Positions 5,824-26,034 of a stretch of 64,000 bases of DNA are shown here, one piece after another. A program made the position numbers and the translations under genes. Position 1 is the stretch's first letter, and each line of letters starts with the position of its first letter. The stretch is from assembly GCF_021729015.1 (NCBI RefSeq), contig NZ_JAJQQZ010000004.1, forward strand, positions 1 through 64,000, given 5' to 3'. The notes beneath the pieces were generated by a model. The model was not told the DNA's origin. It did no database searches and saw nothing but the letters and a program-made list of their open reading frames with translations. This DNA is from Halobacterium rubrum (GTDB lineage Archaea; Halobacteriota; Halobacteria; Halobacteriales; Halobacteriaceae).

Positions 5824-6022
5824 CAGTGTCCGTCCAGTTCACTCACTGCTGGCCCTCCTCGTCTCGCGCGCTGCCATCGCGTTACGGGACTACGCCGTCC
5901 CGAGCCGGAACCACGCCACCGCGACGGACGGCGTCTCTCGCCCCTGCAGCGGTCCCTGTGTAGATCGGGTGGCTTGGTGCGCCAAGCAAAAGTGGTTCTG
6001 TGGTGGCTGCAGAGTCTAGCGT
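5824..6022. other. Intergenic region after the kaiC-like operon
   Basis: 199 bases without a convincing gene. It is C-rich and carries no clear terminator; a GTGCGCCAAGC stretch precedes the next kinase gene. Nothing else can be supported. Confidence 0.5.
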
Positions 6023-7075
6023 ATGAAAGATACTCTCGGTTCCCCCGCCCTCCCGGTTGCCAGCGACGAACCGAGAGACGCTGCTGCTCGACGCGTCATC
6101 GACGGCGTCGCGACCCACGCGATTTTCGTGCTCGATACGGACGGGCACATCGTCACGTGGCCGGCTCCAGCCGAAGCACTCTACGGATACGACGCGGCGG
6201 AAGTTCTCGACAGCCACGTGCGGCTGCTGTTCGCCGACGACGAGGACGACGCAGACACCGATTCGCTTCCCTCTGACTTCTTCGAGGAGCCGACGACCGA
6301 CTCGGTGGAGATCGAACACTGGCACCGACAGGCAGATGGCTCCGTCTTCTGGGGGACGCTGACGCTGTCACCGCTGGGCGGTGACTCACTCCACGGGTAC
6401 GCCGCGGTCAGTCAGGACACCACGACGACCAAAGAGTACGAGCGGATGCTGGAACGCCAGAACGACCGGCTCAAGGAGTTCACCGACATCCTCGCACACG
6501 ACCTCAGAAACCCGCTGAACGTCATCGATGGGCACCTCACCCTGTACGAAGACACCGGCGACGAGGACCACCTCGAAACCATCGACGAGACGACCGACCG
6601 GATGGCACAGCTCGTCGACGACTTGCTCCGTGTGGCCCGACAGGGAGACGTCGTCACGGACCCGGAGCCGACCGACATCGGAGCGGTCATCGATACCACC
6701 TGGCAACGCCTGGCCCCCACGGGTGCCACCCTGCACTACGAGACGGTTCGGTCGGTGAGCAGCGACCCCGACCGGCTCTCCGAACTGTTCGAGAACCTCT
6801 TCTCGAACGCCATCCACCACGGCGGAGCCGACGTATCGGTTCGCGTCGGCCCACTCGACACCGGATTCTACATCGAAGACGACGGGCCGGGAATCGACGA
6901 CGAGCACAAACCGGACGTCTTCGACCACGGATTCACTACCAGCGAATCTGGCCACGGATACGGGCTCTCGGTCGTCCGGACGATTGTCAACGCCCACGGC
7001 TGGGACATCGTCGCGACAGACGCACACCCCCACGGCGCACGCTTCGAAATCACCGGAATCGAACTACTCGGCTAA
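6023..7075 (+). CDS. PAS domain histidine kinase
   Basis: 350 residues, soluble. One PAS domain (~22-135) carries the typical AEALYGYDAAEVL helix and ends in VSQDTTTTKEYE. HisKA has ILAHDLRNPLNVI (His 159), and HATPase has LFENLFSNAIHHGG, IEDDGPGID and a G2 box GHGYGLSVVRTIV. The kinase lacks a receiver or output domain. It follows the KaiC operon in the same orientation after a 199-base gap and has its own start context, so it may be transcribed separately. The input ligand is unknown. Confidence 0.88.
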   Translation: MKDTLGSPALPVASDEPRDAAARRVIDGVATHAIFVLDTDGHIVTWPAPAEALYGYDAAEVLDSHVRLLFADDEDDADTDSLPSDFFEEPTTDSVEIEHWHRQADGSVFWGTLTLSPLGGDSLHGYAAVSQDTTTTKEYERMLERQNDRLKEFTDILAHDLRNPLNVIDGHLTLYEDTGDEDHLETIDETTDRMAQLVDDLLRVARQGDVVTDPEPTDIGAVIDTTWQRLAPTGATLHYETVRSVSSDPDRLSELFENLFSNAIHHGGADVSVRVGPLDTGFYIEDDGPGIDDEHKPDVFDHGFTTSESGHGYGLSVVRTIVNAHGWDIVATDAHPHGARFEITGIELLG

Positions 7076-7204
7076 GACACAGCTACAACGAGCCCGCTCT
7101 CCGCTCCGAACAGCACACAGACCAGTGTACGAGTCCATCTAGTCTCTCTCCAGAGAGAAACCGATAGATCTGATACGTGACACCCTGTGACGAGTGTTCA
7201 ACAG

Positions 7205-7876
7205 TCACGATTGACGCTCTACTACCGCGGTGATGAGTTTCACTTCCGCTTTCTGGAGATGTTCGCTGACCGTGTTAGCCGCACACCCGAGCTCTTCCGC
7301 TAACTCTGCGTGAGTCGTCTCTCGGGGGTGCCGATAGTACCCGTGTTCGAACGCCGTGACAACCGCCTCACGCTGCCGATCGCTCAACTCGGAGAATGCG
7401 TCCGCCCGTACCGACGGCCGTGACCCAACGTTCTCGATAGTCACGTCAATAGCCCGTGGTGCGGCGTCGACGGCGGCCTGCAGCGCCGAAGCGTCTCCTA
7501 TCACCTCGCCTCTCGTTTCGAAGTCGCTGTACGCGACTGGCGATCTGACGAGCAGCCCCGCTCGTGCCGTCAGTACGAGAAACGTCCTGAAGAACGGGAG
7601 TGCGCCGGGGTCTGCCGTGACCAACACCCACCTCGAACCACCGGTGGAAGTGGGTACCGCGACATCTTTGATTCCGTCGGTGCCACGCGCTGCATCGGCG
7701 AACACACCCGAATCACCGTCGACGTCGTACAGAACGGTTGCTAGGTCCTCTGCTGCGAGATTCCAGTCCACGAGACGCAACTGTGAGATCGCTGTCGATT
7801 CTGTCACCGCGACGTAGAACGACGGGAGGGCCCGGGGAGCCAACGTCGCTGAAACCTGGAGTCGAGTCAATGACAT
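7205..7876 (-). CDS. Bat-type HTH_10 transcription regulator
   Basis: 223 residues. The C-terminal ~55 residues form the HTH_10 domain: LSDRQREAVVTAFEHGYYRH, then ELAEELGCAANTVSEHLQKA, the canonical haloarchaeal Bat/HTH_10 layout. The N-terminal ~150 residues resemble the variable sensory half of this family (GAF/BAT-like) but carry no clear cofactor motif. Members activate or repress nearby metabolic genes; bacterio-opsin activator Bat is the founding case. It faces away from the amidohydrolase gene (97 bases between divergent starts), so that enzyme is its most likely target. It converges with the PAS kinase upstream. Confidence 0.85.
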   Translation of the reverse strand: MSLTRLQVSATLAPRALPSFYVAVTESTAISQLRLVDWNLAAEDLATVLYDVDGDSGVFADAARGTDGIKDVAVPTSTGGSRWVLVTADPGALPFFRTFLVLTARAGLLVRSPVAYSDFETRGEVIGDASALQAAVDAAPRAIDVTIENVGSRPSVRADAFSELSDRQREAVVTAFEHGYYRHPRETTHAELAEELGCAANTVSEHLQKAEVKLITAVVERQS

Positions 7877-7973
7877 CGGCAGAACGTACCTCTCGTTTCA
7901 CCACCTGTCTGGTAAAAACCCCATGACAATACCCTGCAGAACGCTCACCGGCTGACTACTCTTATCTCCAATC

Positions 7974-9482
7974 ATGACGCCAGACGCCGCCAAGTTGGGA
8001 GACAACACCGCGGTCAACGACGCAGACCTCGTAGTACACGACGCAGTGGTCGTAACTGTCGACGAAAACAACAGAATCTACCAGAACGGCACAGTTGTCG
8101 TCGAAGACGGCGTCCTCACCGACGTGCGAACGACGCGAGACGGTGACCGGACCTGTGACGCCGATCGCGTCATCGACGGCGAGGGCACCCTCGTGATGCC
8201 CGGGCTGGTCAACGCCCACACCCACCTCGAGCTGACGCCGCTAATCGGCGCGTTCAGCGACCTGGACCTGATGGAGATGACGAGCGGGATGACTGCGATC
8301 TTCGGCCACATTGCCGAGGGTGAGTACGACTACCTCACCGATGCGGGCTACGACCTTGCGGCGCTGAACTTTCTGACGGGTGGGGTCACGACCGTCAACT
8401 CGATGGACGTCCGACCCAGTGGGGGCGCAGAGACGTTCGGCGAAGCCGGTCTCCGCGGATTCTTCGGGACGGCGCTCTCGGACCTCTTCTGGGACATCCC
8501 AACTGATGAGCAGTTTGCCCGCGCTCGTGAGTTCATCGACGAGTACCACGACACCTACGACGGTCGCATCCGGGCGACGATCAACCCCCACGACGACTGG
8601 TCGTGCACACGAGAGCTGTGGGAGCGCACCGCCGCACTCGCCGCCGAGCATCCCGATTTACTCGTCCACACACACCTGCTCGAACTGGAGGCGAGCAACA
8701 CCATGGCGCGATCGAACGGCGCCGAGGACTCCCTCGACCTGCTCGACGACGTCGGCCTCCTCGACGACCGACTGGTGGCCGCACACTTCCGCCTCGCGGA
8801 CGACGAGGACATCCAGCGAACGGCTGAGGCGGACGCGTCGGTCGCGCACTGCCCGTCGATCTTCTGCTACTGGAACACGGACGGCGACGTTCAGTGGACA
8901 CCAGTGCCGGAACTGCGCGCAGCGGGCGTCGACGTCGGCCTGGGCATCGACGACCACTACTGGCACGACTCGTACAGCATGTTTGGCGAGGCGCGGCAGG
9001 CCCGACTCGCGGCGAACCTCAAACGCTCGACCGGCCAGTACTCCTCAATGGAACTGGTACGGATGCTCACTATCGAGGGCGCAGAGGCGCTCGGCATCGG
9101 CGACGAGATCGGGAGCCTCGAACCCGGCAAGCGTGCCGATGTTATCCTGCTCGATGTAGACAAGCCGAAGTTCACGCCGCTGACCAACATCCCCGCGCAG
9201 GTGACCAATAACGCCGCGCCCGCCGACGTGGAGACAGTCATCGTGGACGGCAACGTGCTGATGGAGGACGGCGACGTGAAGACAATGGACGCCGACGCCG
9301 TGCGCGACCGCGTCGAGACCGCGGTGGACCGCTTCGAGGCCGAGACGGACTGGGACCTCGGGCTCGGGGAGAGCGACCCACCGAGTACGTTGGATGTCAC
9401 CCGTGATGTGCCGAAGCGTGGCCCCGCTCAGTTGCTTGGGCGACTCGCGTTCCAGTCGGTCAGAGATAGATTTTCATTCTGA
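7974..9482 (+). CDS. Amidohydrolase family protein (cytosine deaminase/TrzN-like)
   Basis: 502 residues of the metal-dependent amidohydrolase superfamily, Atz/Trz/S-adenosylhomocysteine-deaminase branch. Metal and catalytic motifs run in order: LVNAHTHLE, LLVHTHLLELE, VAAHFRLADDEDI with VAHCPSIFCYW, and GLGIDDHYWHDS. The C-terminal GSLEPGKRADVILLDVDKPKF returns to the small beta-sandwich typical of these enzymes. It should hydrolyse a C-N bond in a heterocyclic or guanidine-like substrate; the substrate cannot be named. Start ATG at 7974 has a short leader with a TTATCT stretch just upstream. It is divergent from the Bat-type regulator. A TnpB element end lies 34 bases after the stop. Confidence 0.85.
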   Translation: MTPDAAKLGDNTAVNDADLVVHDAVVVTVDENNRIYQNGTVVVEDGVLTDVRTTRDGDRTCDADRVIDGEGTLVMPGLVNAHTHLELTPLIGAFSDLDLMEMTSGMTAIFGHIAEGEYDYLTDAGYDLAALNFLTGGVTTVNSMDVRPSGGAETFGEAGLRGFFGTALSDLFWDIPTDEQFARAREFIDEYHDTYDGRIRATINPHDDWSCTRELWERTAALAAEHPDLLVHTHLLELEASNTMARSNGAEDSLDLLDDVGLLDDRLVAAHFRLADDEDIQRTAEADASVAHCPSIFCYWNTDGDVQWTPVPELRAAGVDVGLGIDDHYWHDSYSMFGEARQARLAANLKRSTGQYSSMELVRMLTIEGAEALGIGDEIGSLEPGKRADVILLDVDKPKFTPLTNIPAQVTNNAAPADVETVIVDGNVLMEDGDVKTMDADAVRDRVETAVDRFEAETDWDLGLGESDPPSTLDVTRDVPKRGPAQLLGRLAFQSVRDRFSF

Positions 9483-9531
9483 AACGAGATACGCGAGGGG
9501 TGCTCCGTAACGGCACGTGAACTACTCCACC

Positions 9532-10788
9532 CTACTCAGCCGCTGACGCGGCTTCCTTGAGGGTGGGGCTTCCTGTTTCCACGACGCGCTTTACATCCAC
9601 AACCTCGGAAGCGCCCGAGGAAGTGAACATAGGGAGCGCAGTCTCCACAGGCGTTGTGTCTTCGGACTGTCCCAGTCCTAGCTTCTCGAAACCGCGCGAC
9701 AAAATGTTGATCGCGGCATTTGCATCTCTATCCATCTCGAACCCACAGGCAGGACACGAGTGTTCACGCACCCACAACGGTTTGTCTGACTCGACACCAC
9801 ACGACGCGCACTCTTTGGTCGTGCCCGCTGGCTCGACCTCAACAAAGTGCGTGCCCTCACGGTTGCACTTGTACTCAAGCATCGTCGTGAACGTATCCCA
9901 CGCTGATGATGCAGTATTCCGACTGTTTCCAGCCGACTCCAGCAGTGACTTCACGTTCAAATCCTCGACGGCCACCAAGTCGTACTCGGTGGCGTAATAG
10001 TTCGAGAGTTTGTGCAGGAAGTCGTGGCGTTTCCGCCTGACTCGCTGGTGACACTCAGCTACTCTCAGCCGTTGTGTCTCCCAGTTGTTCGACCCGTGCT
10101 GTTTCCGTGAGAGCGACCGCTGTTCACGCTGGAGGCGTTCTCGTTCGTCTTAGAGGTCGAGTGAGCCGACAGCACGCCCGTCCGTGTCGTGAGCGTATTT
10201 GAGGATGCCCACGTCAATCCCGACACAGCGGTCAGGATTAGCTGGTTTCGGTGGCTCTTCTTTGCCTTCAACCGCGAAGGAAGCGTACCATTCACCAGTC
10301 CGTTCTTTCTTGATGCAGACCTCTTTGATGGTGACATCATCGGGGATTTCGCGGTGGGAACTGATTGGAATGTCAGCAAGTTTCGAGAGTGAGAGGACGG
10401 TCTGGCCGTTTTTCTTGTCGAACTCGAAGCCAGACTGAATGTACGTGAAACTCCTGAACTCGCTGGGTGCCTTCCAATTGAGACTCCCGACGTTGTACCC
10501 GTTCTGTTTGAGTTGTGAGAGTGCTTTGATGCTATCTTCGATTCGCATCACGGCAGCTTGTGCGACAGTTGAGTACAGGTCGGTAAGCTCGTTCCACCAG
10601 TCTTTGAGGTTGGGTAGTTGGTCGCGGACCTGGCGCACTCGCTGGTTGAGCGTTCCTGCTGATTCGGGGATTTGCTCGAACTCGTTGAGTGCGTGATTGT
10701 ACAGTTGCCGACAGGTATCGCGGTGGTAGTCCAGCGTCTCGCGCTGGGCTTCTGTTGGGTGGAGGCGATACCTGTAGGCGTAGTGCAT
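9532..10788 (-). pseudogene. tnpB: RNA-guided endonuclease TnpB with one in-frame stop
   Basis: From ATG 10788 the frame reads a normal TnpB N-terminus (MHYAYRYRLHPTEAQRE...) to GRAVGSLDL, then meets TAA at 10150-10152. The same frame continues, uninterrupted, as DERERLEREQRSLSRKQHG and on through LVAVEDLNVKSLL (RuvC Glu motif), the zinc ribbon CASCG...CPACG and MDRDANAAINIL (RuvC final Asp), to a stop in the right-end hairpin. Total 419 codons including both stops. The damage is a single nonsense codon just after the RuvC-I motif VGIDVGILKYA. Either the gene died recently or the element survives as an RNA source. The C-terminal residues SPTLKEAASAAE are encoded by the terminal hairpin. Confidence 0.85.
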
Positions 10789-10791
10789 CGA

Positions 10792-10932
10792 TTACTCGTC
10801 GGGTTCCGATGTTCGGACGATTTTCACGTCTGCGCCACGCCAGTCCTTTGGGACGAGCACGTGAGCGCCATTACCAGTGGCTTTGACCTCACCTTCGATA
10901 ACTTCGTGGCCTTCGATTTCGTGTCTATCCAT
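10792..10932 (-). CDS. DUF2080-type transposon-associated protein
   Basis: A 46-residue frame starting MDRHEIEGHE and running through HVLVPKDWRGADVKIV. It matches the small DUF2080 proteins found directly upstream of tnpB in haloarchaeal IS1341-type elements, with the swapped-hairpin AbrB-like VPKDW(R/K)G core. It lies 3 bases upstream of the tnpB start on the same strand. Its function in the element is not known; a DNA-binding or antitoxin-like role is only a guess. Confidence 0.8.
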   Translation of the reverse strand: MDRHEIEGHEVIEGEVKATGNGAHVLVPKDWRGADVKIVRTSEPDE

Positions 10933-11147
10933 CACCAGAGTTTAGACATTGTTTCAACATAAGTGTATCGGTCGTGGGCATGTGGGCCTGCAACAGGACA
11001 GTGTATATGAGATGATGACGGCGCTGAATCCCCGCCCTACTCGCTCCCTACAGTCACTCCTTGAGGACGGGGCTTAGCGCCTAAAGACTGCTAAACCTGT
11101 ACCACACCTCCGGCACCTATACGGGCGCGCGCTGTCAGGTGGCAGCT

Positions 11148-12044
11148 ATGCGATTCCTCGTCTGTAACGATCTCCACCTCAAGCCCACTGCAAGCGACTA
11201 CGACGTCGAGGCGGTGCAGGTATCCGACGATGTCGACGCAGCGTTCGTCGCGGGGGACCTCACTCATCGTGACGGCGAGGACGACATCGCACTCGCGCGG
11301 CGGTTCATCGACCGGCTCGCGACTGGCGCCCCCGTCATGTACGTCCCGGGGAACCACGATTGTACGCCGATGCCAGCTCACGTCGTCGACGGCCTCGAGA
11401 ACGCTACCTCCGGACACGATGTGGTCTCGGAGTGCGAGTCGGTGACGGTCGTCGGCTGGGGGTGCGAGCGGCGGTCGCTCGATCCTATTCTCGACCAGAC
11501 GGCGTTCCCAGCGCTGGACCCACGGACTGAGCCACGTGGTGAACGCCGGTACGCCGCCGACCGGACTGCAGACGCTATCGAGGACGCACTTCTCGAGGTC
11601 GTCTCCGATGATACGAGCGCACGAGACGCCGCTGACACGCTCGACATCACGCCCGAGAACCGCGGGGCGTTCCTCCGAAGCGTCACCTCCGTCCAGGCGG
11701 CCTACGACCACCTCGCCAGCCTCGTCGACGCACACACGAACGTCTTCCTTGTCACGCACCTCTCGCCGTTCAACACGTCCTTCGATCGGCATCACTCGAC
11801 GGGAACACGTGAAGAAGATCGTGAAAGCCTCCACACGGGGTCTATCGCACTGAAGCTCGTTGCGAGAACCCACGACGTCTTCGCGACTATCTGCGGCCAC
11901 TCTCACCAGTTCGGGTACGATACCGGCGATGATGCCGACGGCGCACCACACATGCTGAACCTCGGGTTTCGCGGAGTCGGCATCGTCGATGTCAACCCCG
12001 ACGCCGGAGTATTCTCGTTTGCCGACGCAAACCCGAGTATGTAG
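11148..12044 (+). CDS. Calcineurin-like metallophosphoesterase
   Basis: 298 residues with the full metallophosphoesterase motif series: NDLHL at the N-terminus, AGDLTHRDGE, VPGNHD, a THLSPF histidine and GHSHQFG near the C-terminus. These coordinate two metal ions for hydrolysis of phosphomono- or diesters. The middle section (about 100-190) is longer than in minimal enzymes and has helical segments of unknown role. ATG 11148 gives MRFLVCNDLHL; a GTG nine bases upstream is less likely. It stands alone next to the TnpB element end. The substrate cannot be predicted. Confidence 0.85.
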   Translation: MRFLVCNDLHLKPTASDYDVEAVQVSDDVDAAFVAGDLTHRDGEDDIALARRFIDRLATGAPVMYVPGNHDCTPMPAHVVDGLENATSGHDVVSECESVTVVGWGCERRSLDPILDQTAFPALDPRTEPRGERRYAADRTADAIEDALLEVVSDDTSARDAADTLDITPENRGAFLRSVTSVQAAYDHLASLVDAHTNVFLVTHLSPFNTSFDRHHSTGTREEDRESLHTGSIALKLVARTHDVFATICGHSHQFGYDTGDDADGAPHMLNLGFRGVGIVDVNPDAGVFSFADANPSM

Positions 12045-12133
12045 AGAACTGTATCTGACCTACGAAGCACTACTTCCCCGAGCGCAACGCAGCCCGGTAC
12101 AATCAGAATCTACTGGTAGCCCGCCGGCCCCAC

Positions 12134-12595
12134 TCAGTCGTCGGTTTCGACGGGGATGTCGACGGTGCTGTCTGGCTCGTCGCTGGACTCGTCCGTTTCG
12201 ATCGCTTCGGCGAGGTCGTCCAGTGCGAGTTCGACGTTGCGCTTGTTCGCCTTCCAGAGGGCGTCGAAGACAGTACCGGCGTACGGAATGGACCCTCCGG
12301 CCACGTCGATGGTGATGTTGCCGAGCATCGTGACCAGCGTCGTGAAGGAGACGCCGAGGTACGCCGACTCGGCGACGATGTACAGGGAGAAGGCGGCACT
12401 CGCCAGGTCGCCAGCGACGGGGAGTGCGCCCAGAATCGGGTCGAGACCGATGCGGACGCCGATGCCGGGGACGCGCACGCTCTCGTCGAGGACGTACGCG
12501 ACCGTCTCTATCCGCTTGAGCGCGGCCTCGTCGACGTTCTCCGGGAGTTCACCGTCGAGGTCGATGTCGAAGCGGGATTCGAAGTCCGCAGGCAT
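12134..12595 (-). CDS. DUF4112 domain protein
   Basis: 153 residues from ATG 12595 (MPADFESRFDIDL). The core GVRIGLDPILGALPVAGD and the later SIPYAGTVFDALWKANKRN are hallmarks of DUF4112. Two hydrophobic stretches around residues 65-110 suggest membrane association. A longer frame upstream adds 28 residues with unlike composition, so the inner start is chosen. The C-terminus is acidic. The function of this family is unknown. A detached IS right end lies upstream (12717-12818), separated from this start by about 120 bases. Confidence 0.8.
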   Translation of the reverse strand: MPADFESRFDIDLDGELPENVDEAALKRIETVAYVLDESVRVPGIGVRIGLDPILGALPVAGDLASAAFSLYIVAESAYLGVSFTTLVTMLGNITIDVAGGSIPYAGTVFDALWKANKRNVELALDDLAEAIETDESSDEPDSTVDIPVETDD

Positions 12596-12716
12596 GGGGC
12601 TAGAAGTTTGGGTGGGAGACGGAAAGTCTGTGTGGCGGGTGTCGCCACGACGCCAGTCTCGGACCAGTCGTTCGTTCAACTTTAATGGCGGAGGATGTCA
12701 TAGAACGATTACCACA

Positions 12717-12818
12717 GTGAACTACCCCACCCTACTCAGCCGCTGACGCGGCTTCCTTGAGGGTGGGGCTTCCTGTTTCCACGACGCGCTTTACATCCAC
12801 AACCTCGGAAGCGCCCGA
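12717..12818 (-). repeat. Detached right end of the TnpB element (candidate omega/sot RNA locus)
   Basis: This 102-base segment matches 9517-9618 base for base except one position (12726 C versus 9526 T). The offset is exactly 3200. It contains the terminal GTGAACTAC, the two-level hairpin, and the part that encodes the last residues of TnpB, but no tnpB frame follows; the sequence diverges right after GCGCCCGA. In TnpB systems this end of the element encodes the guide-RNA scaffold, with the guide taken from flanking DNA. Here the flank read on the minus strand would begin TGTGGTAATCG. Whether it is transcribed is unknown. Confidence 0.75.
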
Positions 12819-12893
12819 CGATCTAAAGAGCTAGATGAACGCTGAGGCGGGATGATTCCGGTCGTGAGGTATTTTGGCCTACACCGGATAGTG

Positions 12894-13751
12894 ATGAGAG
12901 TGTTCGGAGAAGACATTACGCCAGCAGCGGCAGTACTCGGTCCCGGAGATGACGCTGACGTAGCAATTGTCGGGGGTATTCATGGTGATGAACCGAGTGG
13001 CGTTCGGGCAGTCCGGGAAGTTCTCGAATCCTCCGCGAACTTACAGCGACCGATACAACTTGTAGTAGCGAATCCGCCTGCCGTCGCGAGCCATCGCCGA
13101 TACCTCGATGCCGACATGAACCGAGTGTTTCCAGGCGATCCGGCCAGCGAGGACCGCGAACGCCGACTCGCTGCTGCGCTCCTCAATATAATCAGCGACT
13201 GTGGCGTCGTCCTCTCTCTCCATTCCACCCACTCCTACGATGATCCAATCGCGTTCGTCTCACGGTCACACCCCGAGGTACAGGCACTAGCCGCTCGCCT
13301 CCCAGTTACTCACGTTGTTGACCCAACGCCCTGTTTTGAGGGAGCATTCGCAGCGTCAGCACCTGTTCTCACTATCGAAGCAGGCCGGACGCGTACCGAG
13401 GAGGCGACAGAGAACGCGCGGCAAATCGTTGAGGCCTTCCTTCAGTTGGTTGATGCACTTCCTGGGGAACCGGTAGAGGTAGATTCGACATATTACACGA
13501 TGACTGAAGCAGTCTCGACACAGCCGGACGCCAACTATGATCTCCTCGTCGACAACTTCGAAGTGGTCGAACCAGGGACAACCGTCGTACGTAGCGAGGG
13601 GGACGAATACGTAGCCGATACGTCCTTTGTTCCGATTCTGATGTCCGAAACAGGGTATGACGACATCCTCGGATACAAGGGCGCTGTCGCCGGCGAGACG
13701 CTTTCGTCAGCGCGCAACGCCTGGGGAGTCTCCCCGACTCCCAGGAACTAA
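12894..13751 (+). CDS. Succinylglutamate desuccinylase/aspartoacylase family protein
   Basis: 285 residues from ATG 12894 (MRVFGEDIT); an in-frame ATG at 12852 would add 14 residues. Zinc-carboxypeptidase-like motifs are present: VGGIHGDEPSG (His and Glu ligands), YLDADMNRVFPG (Asn-Arg substrate binding), and SLHSTHS (third His ligand). The C-terminal half holds a beta-rich domain typical of the AstE/AspA family. It should cleave an N-acyl amino acid or related amide. It stands just downstream of the detached IS end, so its native promoter may have been altered. Confidence 0.83.
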   Translation: MRVFGEDITPAAAVLGPGDDADVAIVGGIHGDEPSGVRAVREVLESSANLQRPIQLVVANPPAVASHRRYLDADMNRVFPGDPASEDRERRLAAALLNIISDCGVVLSLHSTHSYDDPIAFVSRSHPEVQALAARLPVTHVVDPTPCFEGAFAASAPVLTIEAGRTRTEEATENARQIVEAFLQLVDALPGEPVEVDSTYYTMTEAVSTQPDANYDLLVDNFEVVEPGTTVVRSEGDEYVADTSFVPILMSETGYDDILGYKGAVAGETLSSARNAWGVSPTPRN

Positions 13752-14180
13752 TTCATCCGTGTCGTTCCGTAGAGAGTAACTGTTTTCCTGAGGCAGACAC
13801 CCCTGTCATGAGTAGCCACCAGACTCTCGGCAGAAGGATGGCAACTGTTCTACGACATTCTCTAATGAACGCCTTGGGAACCCTTCTATGACACCCTCTT
13901 AGTGGCGAACAAAGGCGAACTCTCCTGATTCAACCTGTCTGCGAAAGCGTTCGTGGGTATGGATTCTGTGACGGCACCATTGACATCCTCCCCGCCCTGA
14001 AGGGCGAGGTTTTGCGCCTGCTCATCCCATAATAATTCATCCAGATCGGGGGGCCTCCTATCCAAACACCATCCAAGCAACCACCCAAGGTTATAAAATA
14101 ACGTCCCGAAGTTCGAGTGAACGCGTGATATTTCGATCGGCAGCTGTCACAACAGTACCACAGTTCTCTCGGAGGAGTCG
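13752..14180. other. Gene-free region with IS debris
   Basis: No gene is convincing here. Two short minus-strand matches to GAGGGTGTCATAGAA-type sequence lie near 13841-13861 and 13882-13900. An IS200/IS605-like hairpin is at 13981-14009. The last 100 bases before the next gene are relatively AT-rich and probably contain its promoter (AAGGTTATAAAAT around 14088-14100). Confidence 0.5.
13981..14009. repeat. IS200/IS605-type terminal hairpin remnant (copy 1)
   Basis: The hairpin core is CGCCCT GA AGGGCG. The 29-base segment is identical to 25949-25977. No tnpB fragment is attached, so it is a leftover end or a small palindrome-associated element. Confidence 0.6.
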
Positions 14181-15176
14181 ATGAGTGGGACAGCGTCGAC
14201 GGCGAGTTCGGTCCGGAGTATCGAGGGAGTCGGTGAACGAGCGTTGCATTGGCTCCTTCTCGGTGGGAATCGAATCGCCGTCACCGGCGTTCTCGTCGCC
14301 GCTGTCGCGGCGCTGTTTTTCGCACTCACCCGACTCGGGTTGTTAGCCATCGGGCCAGGGAGTGCTGCGGCGTCGGCCTTTGCGAGCGGATTTATCTCTG
14401 GCACGGTGACCCTAGTCACCATCGCGCTATCCATCAACCAGCTGGTCCTCTCGCGCATGTTCGGCTCCCCCAGGGAACTGTTCAACCAGATGGACGGTAC
14501 GCGTGACCTCCGCCGTCGGGTGCGGGAGCACGCCGGCGAGTCGTCCGTGCCGAACGATCCGGCGGATTTTCTCGGCCTGATCGCTGAGACGCTCACTGAA
14601 CGCGCGAACCGCCTCAGTTCGGCGTTCGAGTCCAGTGACGATATTCCCGCCGAGGCCGAGGACTACGCGGCGGGAATCGCCACCTACGGTGAGAGTATCT
14701 CCGAGAAGATAGAGAGTCAGACAGCCATCGCGAACGTTCTCGCGGTCATCCTGGGTACCGAATACGCACGGAATATGACCGCGACAGAACATCTCCAGAA
14801 CGAGTACGACCAGTTCTCTCCGGCCGCGGAGTCGGAACTCGATGCGATCGACGACCTCTTGGAGGCGATCGCCGTCACACGACAGTTCTTCAAGACACTC
14901 TCGCTCCAGCAGGACTTCGCTCGACTCTCCCGTGTGGTCGCGTACAGTGGCCTCGTAGCCCTCGCCGCCAGCGTCGCAATGGCCCTTATTTACCGGCCTG
15001 ACTCCGTCACCGTTCCGGAACCGTATCTCCCGCTGTTGTTTAGCCTCGGTCTCGGGATCATCGTCACGCCACTTGCGGTGTTCATCGCGTACATGTTCCG
15101 TGCGGCAACCATCGCTCGCCACACTGTCTCAGTCGGCCCGTTTGTCCCACCCGAGGAGCGAACCGACAGCGAGTGA
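14181..15176 (+). CDS. Haloarchaeal membrane protein of unknown function
   Basis: 331 residues. Two hydrophobic helices near residues 30-95 (VTGVLVAAVAALFFAL and FASGFISGTVTLVTIAL) and two near the C-terminus (about 255-275 and 285-310) flank a long soluble middle of about 150 residues, mostly helical. No enzymatic motif is visible. The topology, two hairpins around a cytoplasmic or external middle domain, is a prediction. ATG 14181 fits a promoter TATA-like TTATAAAAT some 80 bases upstream. It stands alone. Confidence 0.7.
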   Translation: MSGTASTASSVRSIEGVGERALHWLLLGGNRIAVTGVLVAAVAALFFALTRLGLLAIGPGSAAASAFASGFISGTVTLVTIALSINQLVLSRMFGSPRELFNQMDGTRDLRRRVREHAGESSVPNDPADFLGLIAETLTERANRLSSAFESSDDIPAEAEDYAAGIATYGESISEKIESQTAIANVLAVILGTEYARNMTATEHLQNEYDQFSPAAESELDAIDDLLEAIAVTRQFFKTLSLQQDFARLSRVVAYSGLVALAASVAMALIYRPDSVTVPEPYLPLLFSLGLGIIVTPLAVFIAYMFRAATIARHTVSVGPFVPPEERTDSE

Positions 15177-15289
15177 TGCCTCCCACCGTCTCGTCCTACG
15201 AATGCTTTCGTGGCGGCTCCTCTCGGGCCCATGCAAACCCCCGACCCCTCGCGTCTACGACCGGCGGCTCCCGTGAGGTCGTTTCTCTA

Positions 15290-15505
15290 CTCTTCGGTCG
15301 CCTCGATGGACTCGGCGACGGTCTCACCTTCGGTCCCTCAGACGACGTAACTGTAATTTCGCAGGGCGACGAACACGACGCCACCGACGAGGTTCTCCAC
15401 CGTGGTGCGTGCGAGAAACTGCGCCCACTGGAGGTGGGAGATATCGGCGCCAGCGAGCATCCCGGCGATGACTTCGATGTTGCTAGCGACACAGTGTGAA
15501 AGGTG
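15290..15505 (-). pseudogene. Formate/nitrite transporter family, C-terminal remnant
   Basis: One minus-strand frame reads HCVASNIEVIAGMLAG, then QWAQFLARTTVENLVGGVVF and VALRNYSYVV followed by TGA, which resembles the last two helices of FNT channels. In-frame sequence resumes after that stop (ESIEATEE). The upstream part of the gene, some 200 codons, is missing; the frame shifts right at the start of the fragment. Confidence in the family is moderate because only about 55 residues remain. Confidence 0.5.
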
Positions 15506-15601
15506 CCTGGTAGCTGACCGGCACAGCCCGCGAATGCTCCGAAAGTGGACGCCCCCGTCAGCTGGGGGAGCCTGCGACGGGAGAGCGGGCTCTGTCCGCT
15601 A

Positions 15602-16249
15602 GGCGGCACAGTTGTTCGGCCCCAGTTCGAGTTCCGTCGCCTCGCCCTCGTCATCGACGGTCTCTTTGCCGATATTGATGCCGATAACTGTCTCGTAGTT
15701 CGGGGGCTTCTCCGGGGCATCCTCGGTCAATCGCTCGACGAACGCTTCGCGGTCGAGCCCGAGGAAGTCGAGTTCGTCGCGGAGGTTCCCGAGCTGGGCC
15801 TCGAGGGGTTCGCCCGGCGAGCCGTTCTCGTAGCGGCCGTCGCTCGTGACGGTGAGGTGGCCCGGCAGGATCGTCGTGTCGTCCGGGAGGTCGAGGATGG
15901 TCTCGTGGAGCGAGTCGTACAGTAGTTCTGCACCACGGGAGGCGTCGTCCTCGCCGAACTGGAGTTCCGTCCGCCCGACGGAGTCGACGAACAGCGTATC
16001 GCCCGTTAACAGGAGTTCGCAGTCGACGAGGTAGTTTATCATCTCCGAGGTGTGGCCAGGCGTGTGGTGCGCCTCGATCTCGACGTCACCCACGTCGATG
16101 ACCTCGCCATCCGACACCGGTTCGTAGTCGTATTCGACACCGCGCTCGCTGGATGCTTCGCCGAGGTGGTAGGGTACGCCGACCTCGTCGGTGTCGCTGG
16201 CTGGTGTCCACCACGGCTCCAGGTACGCTTGGTACTCACCGCGGCCCAC
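15602..16249 (-). pseudogene. Metallo-beta-lactamase-fold hydrolase lacking its N-terminal metal motif
   Basis: The frame holds the second half of a persulfide-dioxygenase/glyoxalase-II-like enzyme: AHHTPGHTSEMINYLV, LLTGDTLFVDSVGRTEL and TTILPGHLTV, ending LELGPNNCAA. The first metal motif HxHxDH and the strands before it are absent. Instead the first residues and the codons just upstream read RLQRLRALDIIENVGRGEYQ, which looks like the end of a winged-helix DNA-binding domain. This suggests a deletion that fused an HTH gene to the lactamase-fold gene. Without the HxHxDH motif it should be inactive. An upstream TGA limits the frame at about 16296. Confidence 0.65.
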
Positions 16250-16377
16250 GTTCTCGATGATGTCCAGCGCTCGCAGTCGCTGGAGGCGCGGCGGGCCAGT
16301 TCATGCCGTGAGAGGGACGCCGGGAGTGGCTGGTGTTTTGCAGGACGACGGGAGCTGGTGCTCGGCTAACTTTTGTA

Positions 16378-20423: not shown

Positions 20424-22208
20424 ATGGCTTCGAAACTGACGAGACGGCGGCTCCTGCAGGCGTGTGCCGCGCTCGGGGCTGCCAGTACCGTGCCCGGATA
20501 CGCGACCGCGGAGTCGGAGCCGGACCTAGAGAAGTTCGTGCAGCCCCTCCCGATCCCGTCGGTCCGCGAGCCTGATGGGAAACGGCAGGGCGCCGACTAC
20601 TACGAGATCCCGATTCGTGAGTTCGACCAACAGGTCCACCCGGACCTCCCACCGACCACGTTCTGGGGGTTCGACGGCACTGTCCCGGGGCCAGTCGTGA
20701 AAGCCCGGCGGAACGAACAGATTAAACTCCGCTTCGACAACACCGACCTGCCGTCGGACCACCTCTTCGACATTGACGACCGGATTCACGGCACTTCACC
20801 GGAGGACTACCCGGGCCACGACGACCCCGTTCCGGACGTCCGCACCGTGATCCACCAGCACGGGCTCAACGTCGAACCGGAAAGCGACGGTCAGGCGACC
20901 GCCTGGAAGTCACCGGACGGCACCACCGGGCCCCGGTTCGTCAAGCACGTCCACGACCTCCCGAACCGTCAGCCGAGGATGACCGCGACCTACCACGACC
21001 ACGCACTCGGCGTCAGCCGGCTGAACAACTACGCCGGCCTGAACGGGTTCTACGTCATCGAGAGCCCGCACGAACAGCGGCTGAACCTGCCCAGCGGCGA
21101 GTACGACGTCCCGGTGATGCTCCAGGACAAGACGTTCGAAGCCGACGGCTCGCTGCACTACCCGAGTTCGTTCGTGCCGAACTTCGCGGGCGACACCGCA
21201 TTCGTCAACGGCGCAGTGTGGCCGTACATGGAGGTCGAACCCCGCCGCTACCGGTTCCGACTCGTCAACCAGTCGAACGGCCGGACGTTCGACCTCGCGC
21301 TTGAAGGCAGTCACAACGATGACGATGGGCACTCGGACGACGCTGCCGTGCCCCTTCTCTACCAGTTCGCGCCTGACCAGGGGTTCCTGAACAATGTCGT
21401 CCCCATCGGCCCGGGCCAAGACCTCGAGTCGCTGGTTCTGGGGCCCTTCGAGCGGGCTGAGGTTGTGGTCGATTTCTCCGGCCACGAGGGCGAAACGTTC
21501 ACTGTCACGAACGACGCCGAATTCCCGTTCTCGGGCGGCCAGAATGGAGACGGCAGCCATGGCAGCCACGGCAACGGTGGCGACTCCGACACCCACCTCG
21601 GCGAAATCATGCAGTTTCGGGTCACCGACCCCGACCACAAGGTCGTCGACGACAGCGCCCATCCGCGCAACCTATCGCTCCCGACACATCCGGGATACAG
21701 CGAGCAGGCCGCCAAGCAGACCCGGCACATGACAATGGGAATGCGAATGGACGACGGACTCGAGACCCACGTCCTGAACGGGAAAACGTTCAGCGACGGG
21801 GGCGTCGACGCGACGCCCCAACTCGGCACCACCGAAGTGTGGGAACTCGAAAACAACACGATGCACACGCATCCGATCCACCTCCACCTCGTCGAGTTCC
21901 GTGTAATCGGGCGCGGCCCAGACGGCACCGAGGACCCCGCACCCAACGAACGCGGCCCCAAAGACGTCGTCCGCGTCGACCCCGACGAAACAGTCCGAAT
22001 CATCACCAAGTTCGGTGACTTCACCGGCCGGTATCCCTGGCACTGTCACGTCCTCGAACACGAAGAGCAGGCGATGATGCGCCCCTTCGAGGTCGTCGCT
22101 GGTAACTCCGCCAGACAGGGTCAGAACAACGGCCACGGGCCCGGTAACGGCAACGGCTCTGACAGAAGCAGTCAAGGTCAAGACAATCCGTCGGGTAGAA
22201 GCCAGTAA
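20424..22208 (+). CDS. Multicopper oxidase (laccase/CotA-like), Tat-exported
   Basis: 594 residues, Tat signal with LTRRRLLQACAALG. All four copper motifs are present: HQHGLN (first His 144), YHDHALG, HTHPIHLHLVEF (first His 481) and WHCHVLEHEEQAMM (type-1 Cys 541 with following Met ligand). Three cupredoxin domains fit the length. It should oxidise phenols, metals or bilirubin-like compounds with oxygen outside the cell. The methionine-poor His insert GDGSHGSHGNGGDSDTH near residue 375 and the Gly/Asn-rich tail are unusual. The stop TAA is formed at the very edge of the TnpB element (terminal GTAAACTAC), so the original C-terminus may have been cut or changed. It is last gene of the LVIVD operon. 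Confidence 0.92.
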   Translation: MASKLTRRRLLQACAALGAASTVPGYATAESEPDLEKFVQPLPIPSVREPDGKRQGADYYEIPIREFDQQVHPDLPPTTFWGFDGTVPGPVVKARRNEQIKLRFDNTDLPSDHLFDIDDRIHGTSPEDYPGHDDPVPDVRTVIHQHGLNVEPESDGQATAWKSPDGTTGPRFVKHVHDLPNRQPRMTATYHDHALGVSRLNNYAGLNGFYVIESPHEQRLNLPSGEYDVPVMLQDKTFEADGSLHYPSSFVPNFAGDTAFVNGAVWPYMEVEPRRYRFRLVNQSNGRTFDLALEGSHNDDDGHSDDAAVPLLYQFAPDQGFLNNVVPIGPGQDLESLVLGPFERAEVVVDFSGHEGETFTVTNDAEFPFSGGQNGDGSHGSHGNGGDSDTHLGEIMQFRVTDPDHKVVDDSAHPRNLSLPTHPGYSEQAAKQTRHMTMGMRMDDGLETHVLNGKTFSDGGVDATPQLGTTEVWELENNTMHTHPIHLHLVEFRVIGRGPDGTEDPAPNERGPKDVVRVDPDETVRIITKFGDFTGRYPWHCHVLEHEEQAMMRPFEVVAGNSARQGQNNGHGPGNGNGSDRSSQGQDNPSGRSQ

Positions 22209-22284
22209 ACTACCCCTCCCTACTCCCTCGGCGCATACGCGCCTCGGTCCTTGAGGGAGGGGCTTTGATGTGGACTCCCGGCGA

Positions 22285-23541
22285 TCAGCTTTCGGCGATT
22301 GGCCGATAGCCGTCGCCGTTCAACGTCCCACCATGTATACGCACGTCTACTGGTGCGTCTGCGCTCCCCGACGTGGGCGAGGAACGCAGGCTGTGTTGTC
22401 GCTTCCGCATATACCGCAGGCCGACGTTTTTCGCGCCATTGTAGTCCGCGTTGATCTCGTACCCGCATTTGAGGCACTTGAACTGCTCGCCGTCGCGGTT
22501 ATTTTCGTGAGTGAACCCGCAGTCGGTGTGTGAACACCGCTGGCTCGTGTGATCTGGTTCAACCTGTGCAACCGCCACACTCCGTTCTGGCGCTTTGTAC
22601 TCGACGTACTCGACAAGACGGCGAAATGCCCAGATGTGATGCCAGTCAGCGTGGGGCAGCCGCTCTCGAATGTCGGTCAAGTCCTCGAACACGATCACAT
22701 CGCAGTCGTGGGCAACCGCTTCCTCAACGATCTCGTTGGCAACTCTGTGGAGATACTGTTTCCGCCATGCGCGCTCTCGCCTTCCAAGTCGAAGCAGGGC
22801 GTTATGAGCGGCTTGTGTGCCACGCTGTTGCATCTCTGCCCGGCGCTTCTCGAACTCGTGAATCCAATGGTCGTACTCGTCACCGCTCCAGAACGTGCCT
22901 GTTGACGATACGGCGAGACTGTTCACGCCGAGGTCGATCCCGAGGACTGTTTGGTGCCCGGTATCGTCCGAATCCTCAACTTCGACAGCCTCGCCGTCGT
23001 CGTCTATCTTCCGTGTTTTGACGTGGAAGTAGAACTCGTCAGTTGCTTGATCGTATTGGAGTGTACTCGTCCGAAACTCGTAGTCTTCGGAAAGAACGTA
23101 CTCCTCGTATGGTGTTGGACTGTCTGCTGGCAACTCAAACCCACACTCAATGCGCCCGTTCACCGTCGAAAGCGAGATTTTGTTCCGGTAGAAAGTTGCA
23201 CTGCGCTTGTCGTAGACCAGACTCCAGGAGGTGAACTCTGGCTTGTTCGTCCGCTTGCCCTTCTTCCAGCGGTCAACACCACTATCGACGGCGTGGACGG
23301 CCCGCCGGATGGCTTCTTGGACGAGATTTGCTGTCAGGTCAGTTTCCTCGCGGAGTCGGTCGTACAGCGCATCTCTGGCTTTCACGTTCGAGGTGACGCA
23401 GTCTTCGTAGTCGGTGTTGTCCCAACAGTAGTCACTGGCTTCGTTCGCACAGTAGAGGAATTGCTCGGCGGTTTCGTGGAGGTCGTCGTAATACTCGTCG
23501 GGGACGACGAGTTTGACCGGCGCGGTACGCCTGACCTCCAT
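22285..23541 (-). CDS. tnpB: RNA-guided endonuclease TnpB
   Basis: 418 residues with a complete RuvC triad: GIDLGVNSLAV (Asp 203), IVFEDLTDI (Glu 286) and INADYNGAKN (Asp 366). The zinc ribbon is CSHTDC...CLKC (residues 336-359). The N-terminal half has the helical recognition region. TnpB proteins are nucleases guided by an RNA from the element's right end and they bias inheritance of the element. Nothing in the frame suggests inactivation, unlike the copy at 9.5 kb. A TATA-like TTATTAAGTA (minus strand) lies about 30 bases upstream of ATG 23541. The C-terminus reads into, but stops before, the right-end hairpin. Confidence 0.93.
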   Translation of the reverse strand: MEVRRTAPVKLVVPDEYYDDLHETAEQFLYCANEASDYCWDNTDYEDCVTSNVKARDALYDRLREETDLTANLVQEAIRRAVHAVDSGVDRWKKGKRTNKPEFTSWSLVYDKRSATFYRNKISLSTVNGRIECGFELPADSPTPYEEYVLSEDYEFRTSTLQYDQATDEFYFHVKTRKIDDDGEAVEVEDSDDTGHQTVLGIDLGVNSLAVSSTGTFWSGDEYDHWIHEFEKRRAEMQQRGTQAAHNALLRLGRRERAWRKQYLHRVANEIVEEAVAHDCDVIVFEDLTDIRERLPHADWHHIWAFRRLVEYVEYKAPERSVAVAQVEPDHTSQRCSHTDCGFTHENNRDGEQFKCLKCGYEINADYNGAKNVGLRYMRKRQHSLRSSPTSGSADAPVDVRIHGGTLNGDGYRPIAES

Positions 23542-25749: not shown

Positions 25750-26034
25750 ATTGGACTGGTGGTGTATCCCGGTTTCGTCACAGGGTATTACTGGTGGCCT
25801 TCGCGCCCGCTAACCGCCTCTGGAGGGTGTCATCGAACAGTTCGCACACCTGGTTGGAGCGGTACGAACAGGTGAACTACTGGGCCTATTCACCGGATTT
25901 GAACCGAGAACTGCATCCAGAATCAGCCCCAGGAGCTCTCTCCAAGCGTGACATCCTCCCCGCCCTGAAGGGCGAGGATTCTCGACCGCCGTTGGGATAT
26001 TGTGGTTTACGGAAGTTGCGGATTCATTCCCGCC
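25749..26034. other. IS debris region
   Basis: No coding sequence is convincing. It contains a GGAGGGTGTCATCGAACAG segment near 25823 resembling those at 12691 and 13882, a GTGAACTAC (25872-25880) like the right-end terminus of the TnpB elements, a hairpin identical to that at 13981 (25949-25977), and a second hairpin at 26029-26046. It looks like layered remains of several elements. Confidence 0.5.
25949..25977. repeat. IS200/IS605-type terminal hairpin remnant (copy 2)
   Basis: The segment is identical over 29 bases to 13981-14009, with the CGCCCT GA AGGGCG hairpin, here extended by ATCCTC/GAGGAT arms at 25953-25979. Confidence 0.6.

Follow-up and report, generated by a model that had tools for sequence, protein, structure and literature searches.

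The locus examined here raises the question of what a copy of a TnpB-element right end is doing at 12717-12818 without a tnpB of its own. An earlier note had suggested a stand-alone guide RNA that serves a TnpB in trans, perhaps as a domesticated regulator, and had named debris as the other option. We have analyzed the copy within the window (the whole 64,000-nucleotide stretch) and against the rest of the genome and its relatives. The reading we favor, with a probability of about 0.87, is that 12717-12822 is a terminal-only (PATE-like) remnant of a tnpB element belonging to the same group as the neighboring one, and that it has no guide function. The debris option is thus the likely one, in the form of a core-deleted terminal remnant. 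The features on which the argument draws are collected in Table 1.

The copy and the right end of the neighboring tnpB element are direct repeats with an E value of 2e-46, and a search of the whole genome (7 contigs, 3.07 Mb) shows no third copy of the segment. The earlier note was correct that the 102 bases match 9517-9618 with one difference, which is C12726 in the stand-alone copy and T9526 in the tnpB-linked copy. Comparison with related right ends shows the base at 12726 to be group-typical and that at 9526 to be the deviant. At 99% identity to its neighbor, the stand-alone copy is no ancient ruin. Read on the minus strand, over 20 right ends of related elements in the genus share GTAGTTCAC as their final bases and differ beyond it. 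Judged from these alignments, 12717 is a true IS200/IS605-type right-end terminus on the minus strand, common to more than 20 haloarchaeal elements, in agreement with the position first proposed for it. No tnpB body adjoins 12717-12818, which is indeed, as had been stated, an isolated TnpB-element right end.

Table 1. Coordinates in the window of the right-end copy, its host site and the neighboring tnpB element
Feature	Position	Strand	Basis
tnpB 3' end and right end copy (omega-RNA 3' portion, right-end hairpin, GTAGTTCAC terminus)	12717-12818	-	99% identity to 9517-9618; conserved terminus; covariance model 60 bits
106-bp IS200/IS605-type insertion: 102-bp right-end/tnpB-3' segment and 4-nt left-side remnant ATCG	12717-12822	-	ISH11 copies uninterrupted across this point; no target duplication
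TTTAG target site directly 5' of the insertion (minus strand)	12823-12827	-	sequence; TTTAG/TTAG also before left ends of the group's full tnpB elements
Outer 26 bp of ISH11-type terminus; minus-strand reading is the putative guide	12691-12716	+	21-24/26 bases identical to intact ISH11-group elements
ISH11-type left end, continuation past the insertion	12823-12860	+	aligns with ISH11 left ends; 30-42 vs ≤18 in shuffles
TTAATGGCG, target-duplication-like repeat left of the ISH11-type end	12682-12690	+	8/9 identical to 13899-13907
TTAGTGGCG, target-duplication-like repeat, right side	13899-13907	+	8/9 identical to 12682-12690
Opposite inverted terminal repeat of the ISH11-type cassette	13875-13898	-	83% complementary to 12691-12714; GAGGGTGTCATAGAA exact at 13884-13898
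AstE/AspA-type gene flanked by the ISH11-type ends (replaces a transposase)	12894-13751	+	PF24827, E 3e-21
Neighboring tnpB element, inferred extent, from TTTAG (11095-11091) to the GTAGTTCAC terminus (9517); left-end hairpin 11030-11072	9517-11090	-	
Neighboring tnpB, disrupted by an in-frame TAA at codon 213	9532-10788	-	
Complete omega-RNA region of the neighboring tnpB element	9517-9658	-	covariance model R1, 125 bits, full length

The DNA on either side of the copy identifies the site into which it was inserted. The motif beside the copy, GAGGRTGTCATAGAA, forms inverted pairs in the genome, including one at 12691/13898 and one at C4:260774/261841. The latter pair bounds a 1068-bp element that carries a DDE transposase (PF01609) and is 92% identical to ISH11 of Halobacterium salinarum pNRC100. 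When the window is aligned with ISH11-group left ends taken from plasmids, a 26 bp match (12691-12716) breaks off and resumes at 12823, the right-hand part of the alignment being scored against 500 shuffles. Insert ends from 12717 to 12899 were tried for gapless fit to the ISH11 left ends; an end at 12822 fits best (10/14 positions, with the next best at 8/14), and excising exactly these 106 bp regains an ISH11 left end and hence the empty site. The match to the neighboring element is therefore 102 bp, as originally described, but the inserted unit is the 106 bp from 12717 to 12822. Its left side reads ATCGTCGGGCGCT, the bases flanking it show no duplication, and it has no terminal inverted repeats. 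Five full elements of the group have a left end made up of TTTAG or TTAG, nine bases, and then GGCGC/GTAAGCCCC, and the neighboring tnpB element follows the same pattern. The 106-bp insert shows the layout expected of an IS200/IS605-type insertion, with a fixed target motif on the left, an exact terminus on the right and no duplication of the target.

An AstE/AspA cassette is bounded here by a terminus of ISH11 type (IS5 family), and the insert sits within the left end of this terminus, 26 bp in. The cassette resembles ISH11 in the terminus surrounding the insert (12691-12716 and 12823-12855) and in the inverted end, so that both terminal sequence and inverted repeats are those of the ISH11 group, but it carries an AstE/AspA gene rather than a transposase; no ISH11 transposase is encoded in 12691-13898. 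The ISH11-type end is the recipient of the 106-bp insert and not its source. Several intact ISH11-group copies show target duplications of about 9 bp, and 12691-13898, with its ISH11-type ends and a 9-bp imperfect repeat around the AstE/AspA gene, looks like a transposase-less cargo cassette. Relatives of the AstE/AspA gene were checked for ISH11 ends as a test of cassette mobility, and none were present within the stretches examined. Another sequence that resembles an ISH11 end, though it is more diverged, lies at 13848-13862, 36 bp inside the right end (GAGAATGTCGTAGAA, minus strand). Further along, 13980-14010 and 25948-25978 share a TGACATCCTCCCCGCCCTGAAGGGCGAGG-type sequence that recurs on many haloarchaeal plasmids, for the most part where nothing is annotated, and is perhaps another terminal repeat. 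The insert lies between the ISH11-type end and the AstE/AspA gene, 30-72 bp upstream of possible starts, and might have been kept as a promoter or leader for its effect on expression of that gene; the evidence for such a role is this position in a single genome, and we regard it as very unlikely. A scan for sigma-70-type promoters and terminators found none, though these bacterial-type models are uninformative for archaea.

We propose that an IS200/IS605-type element of the 9517-11090 group would have inserted 3' of TTTAG in the left terminus of the ISH11-type cassette. Its core would then have been lost, probably by a deletion across the short homology that the left-end GGCGCT shares with the GGGCGCT of the tnpB 3' end, to leave 106 bp consisting of a few left-end bases and the last 102 bp of the element. 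Both motifs are present at these places in the group, and a deletion between them would yield the junction observed. This interpretation is favored by a right terminus identical to that of tnpB-linked elements and by a left junction that falls exactly at TTTAG; the retention of the right-end hairpin, of a GAA trinucleotide and of a GCGCTT/AAGCGC stem (see below) speaks against it. The canonical left-end hairpin is not visible on the left side of the insert and the original left end is unobserved.

Two other routes to the same arrangement bear on these junctions. In the first, a TnpA supplied in trans would have inserted the 106-bp segment itself, a mode of movement that has been proposed for PATEs of very small size. 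Consistent with this route, the insertion is precise at TTTAG, the genus contains autonomous relatives that carry TnpA (TnpA genes adjoin same-group elements in the genome G008), and 52-bp terminal-only versions have been suggested to be possibly mobile (PMC3119063). However, there is only one such copy in the genome, its left-end hairpin is absent, and no TnpA or Y1 transposase was found in this genome as it now stands, making the route unlikely. It is a sub-route of the remnant reading, and on these data insertion as a short unit is indistinguishable from core deletion after insertion; we infer the arrival of a larger element followed by its internal deletion, and not the movement of the 106 bp by themselves. 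In the second route, duplication or gene conversion from the neighboring tnpB element 3.2 kb away would have produced the copy with no transposition at all. The 99% identity, shared orientation and short distance would suit such an event, but it is disfavored by the two junctions, each of which coincides with an element-specific site (TTTAG on one side, the GTAGTTCAC terminus on the other). In addition, ISH11 sequence is continuous across the gap, and the stand-alone copy has the group-typical base where the neighbor deviates. We give this local origin only a slim chance.

Whether the remnant could still act as a guide RNA depends first on its scaffold. An alignment of 17 right-end regions of the group supports a four-helix omega-RNA structure in the tnpB-linked copies, in which 95.2% of cells are paired and 14 pairs are changed on both sides. 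The covariation score is 0.325, compared with 0.127 in shuffles (0/500), and the support collapses when the 3' strands are slid. Helix 1 is CCUGU/ACAGG and helix 2 is GAC-GCGCU/AGCGC-GUC. The stand-alone copy starts downstream of the 5' strands of both helices, and these two strands are missing. It scores less than half of the 125 bits that the covariance model gives 9658-9517, and its match includes several non-standard pairs filled from ISH11 sequence. In a fold of the copy on its own, the right-end hairpin persists, and GCGCTT pairs with AAGCGC in a substitute stem that could take over part of the role of helix 2; GAA, a candidate pairing partner of the terminus UUC, is retained as well. 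We accordingly call the stand-alone scaffold incomplete rather than shapeless. A scan of window positions 6000-16000 against Rfam returned no family at E up to 1.

We compared matches to the model with TnpB-domain positions by eye in 13 genomes of the genus. Among the TnpBs listed, each of the 21 best matches (95-153 bits, 13 genomes) is located immediately 3' of a TnpB domain, a clear stand-alone match first appears at 93 bits (G001:C6:22331), and the clear stand-alone right ends all score below these 21 tnpB-linked matches. The 5' breakpoints of the stand-alone copies inspected differ from one another, which fits independent decay and not a preserved RNA. The window itself contains the right end of another tnpB element at 22205-22340, with the terminus GTAGTTTAC instead of GTAGTTCAC and 46 bits with the model. 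At 1-1159 of locus L014 (G006:C4) another omega-RNA right end has been severed from its tnpB by an ISH11-type element that stops immediately upstream of it, which is a further way for a right end to come to stand alone. A short unit at locus L016 (G012:C1:1900928-1900999) has GGCGCTAAGC left-end sequence fused to a right-end terminus and resembles a terminal-only core deletion.

A guide RNA also requires a partner enzyme. The only same-group tnpB in the genome is the neighbor, which is broken at codon 213, and the other four TnpBs of the genome are 21-38% identical to it over partial alignments. Directly upstream of the disrupted gene is a small ORF (10792-10932; MDRHEIEGHEVIEGEV...), which may resemble a transposase-associated small protein. 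With half of the guide-RNA scaffold and an intact partner enzyme missing, a guide role is unlikely.

The putative guide is likewise not what it first seemed. The earlier note read it as host DNA upstream of the DUF4112 gene, but ISH11 copies continue across the insertion point, and the flank is therefore ISH11 terminal sequence and not DNA native to that gene. A genome search for TTTAG followed by 14 guide bases, allowing up to 3 mismatches, returned only the locus itself and the intact ISH11 copy at C4:260786-260804, which differs at two guide bases and at one base of the motif (3 mismatches). Nor is the locus conserved in the one syntenic relative compared, G010, no other member of the genus having a close DUF4112 homologue: there the sequence matches to window position 12677 and resumes at 16276, and both copy and cassette are absent, although a single relative carries little weight.

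The guide hypothesis would call for a transcribed, stand-alone omega RNA that loads a TnpB in trans and carries an ISH11-terminus guide directed, for example, against other ISH11 copies. Its terminus, right-end hairpin and candidate GAA pseudoknot strand are intact, and its guide strand is the end of a mobile element with another copy in the genome. Set against this, helices 1 and 2 cannot form as they do in tnpB-linked copies, and a complete scaffold (helices 1-4 plus terminus), an intact cognate TnpB and a target with a matching adjacent motif, the hallmarks of a functional omega RNA, were not found. Together with the absence from the syntenic relative, these points make a trans-acting guide highly improbable, and on the grounds of scaffold, cognate protein, targets and non-conservation we reject both guide RNA and domesticated regulator. 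Scarcely credible, in turn, is the idea that a trimmed omega RNA folds through the substitute GCGCTT/AAGCGC stem and, once transcribed, directs to ISH11 termini a TnpB that comes from outside, on a plasmid or incoming element. If a guide reading were true, the relic of one mobile element would supply an RNA aimed at, and policing, another. As a core-deleted remnant, the insert presumably makes no working guide RNA.

In ISDra2, working trimmed RNAs retain a 116-nt scaffold core that includes the pairing partners of the 5' stem (PMC10097598). As in the ISDra2 TnpB omega RNA, the terminus here has UUC at -5 to -3, the pseudoknot-strand position, with the pairing proposed in our case, whereas the stand-alone copy is missing the 5' helix strands (PMC10097598). 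Haloarchaeal omega RNAs, or sotRNAs, are known and expressed in Halobacterium (Halobacterium salinarum; PMC12558985), and share with our locus an overlap with the tnpB 3' end, a right-end hairpin and a conserved terminus beside the guide; the present copy differs in that the 5' part of the scaffold is deleted and no tnpB is linked to it. Our literature searches for orphan omega RNAs gave nothing relevant.

The closest parallels are the PATEs and terminal-only IS605-type elements of Haloquadratum, whose core deletions have been described as repeat-mediated and of which one, HqIRS71, reaches into the part of tnpB that codes for the C terminus (Dyall-Smith et al. 2011, PMC3119063). Like these, the 106-bp unit is of non-coding length, too short for a transposase, has IS605-type ends with the right terminus of tnpB-linked elements, lacks inverted repeats and target duplication, and lies at a short target oligonucleotide, TTTAG. 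Unlike them, it is single-copy apart from the tnpB-linked sequence, consists of 102 bp of the right side with almost no left end, and sits in an ISH11-type terminus (PMC3119063). PATEs have palindromes near both termini; here the right-end palindrome is present and the left-end one (AAGCCCC...) is absent. Since the left palindrome and multiple copies are lacking, we class the unit as a PATE-like remnant and not as a PATE proper. It adds one more core-deleted IS605-type remnant to those described, and its empty site allows both junctions to be placed exactly, together with the TTTAG target and the right terminus of the group. A usable by-product is the covariation model for the omega RNA of this group, with which stand-alone right ends can be scored for completeness.
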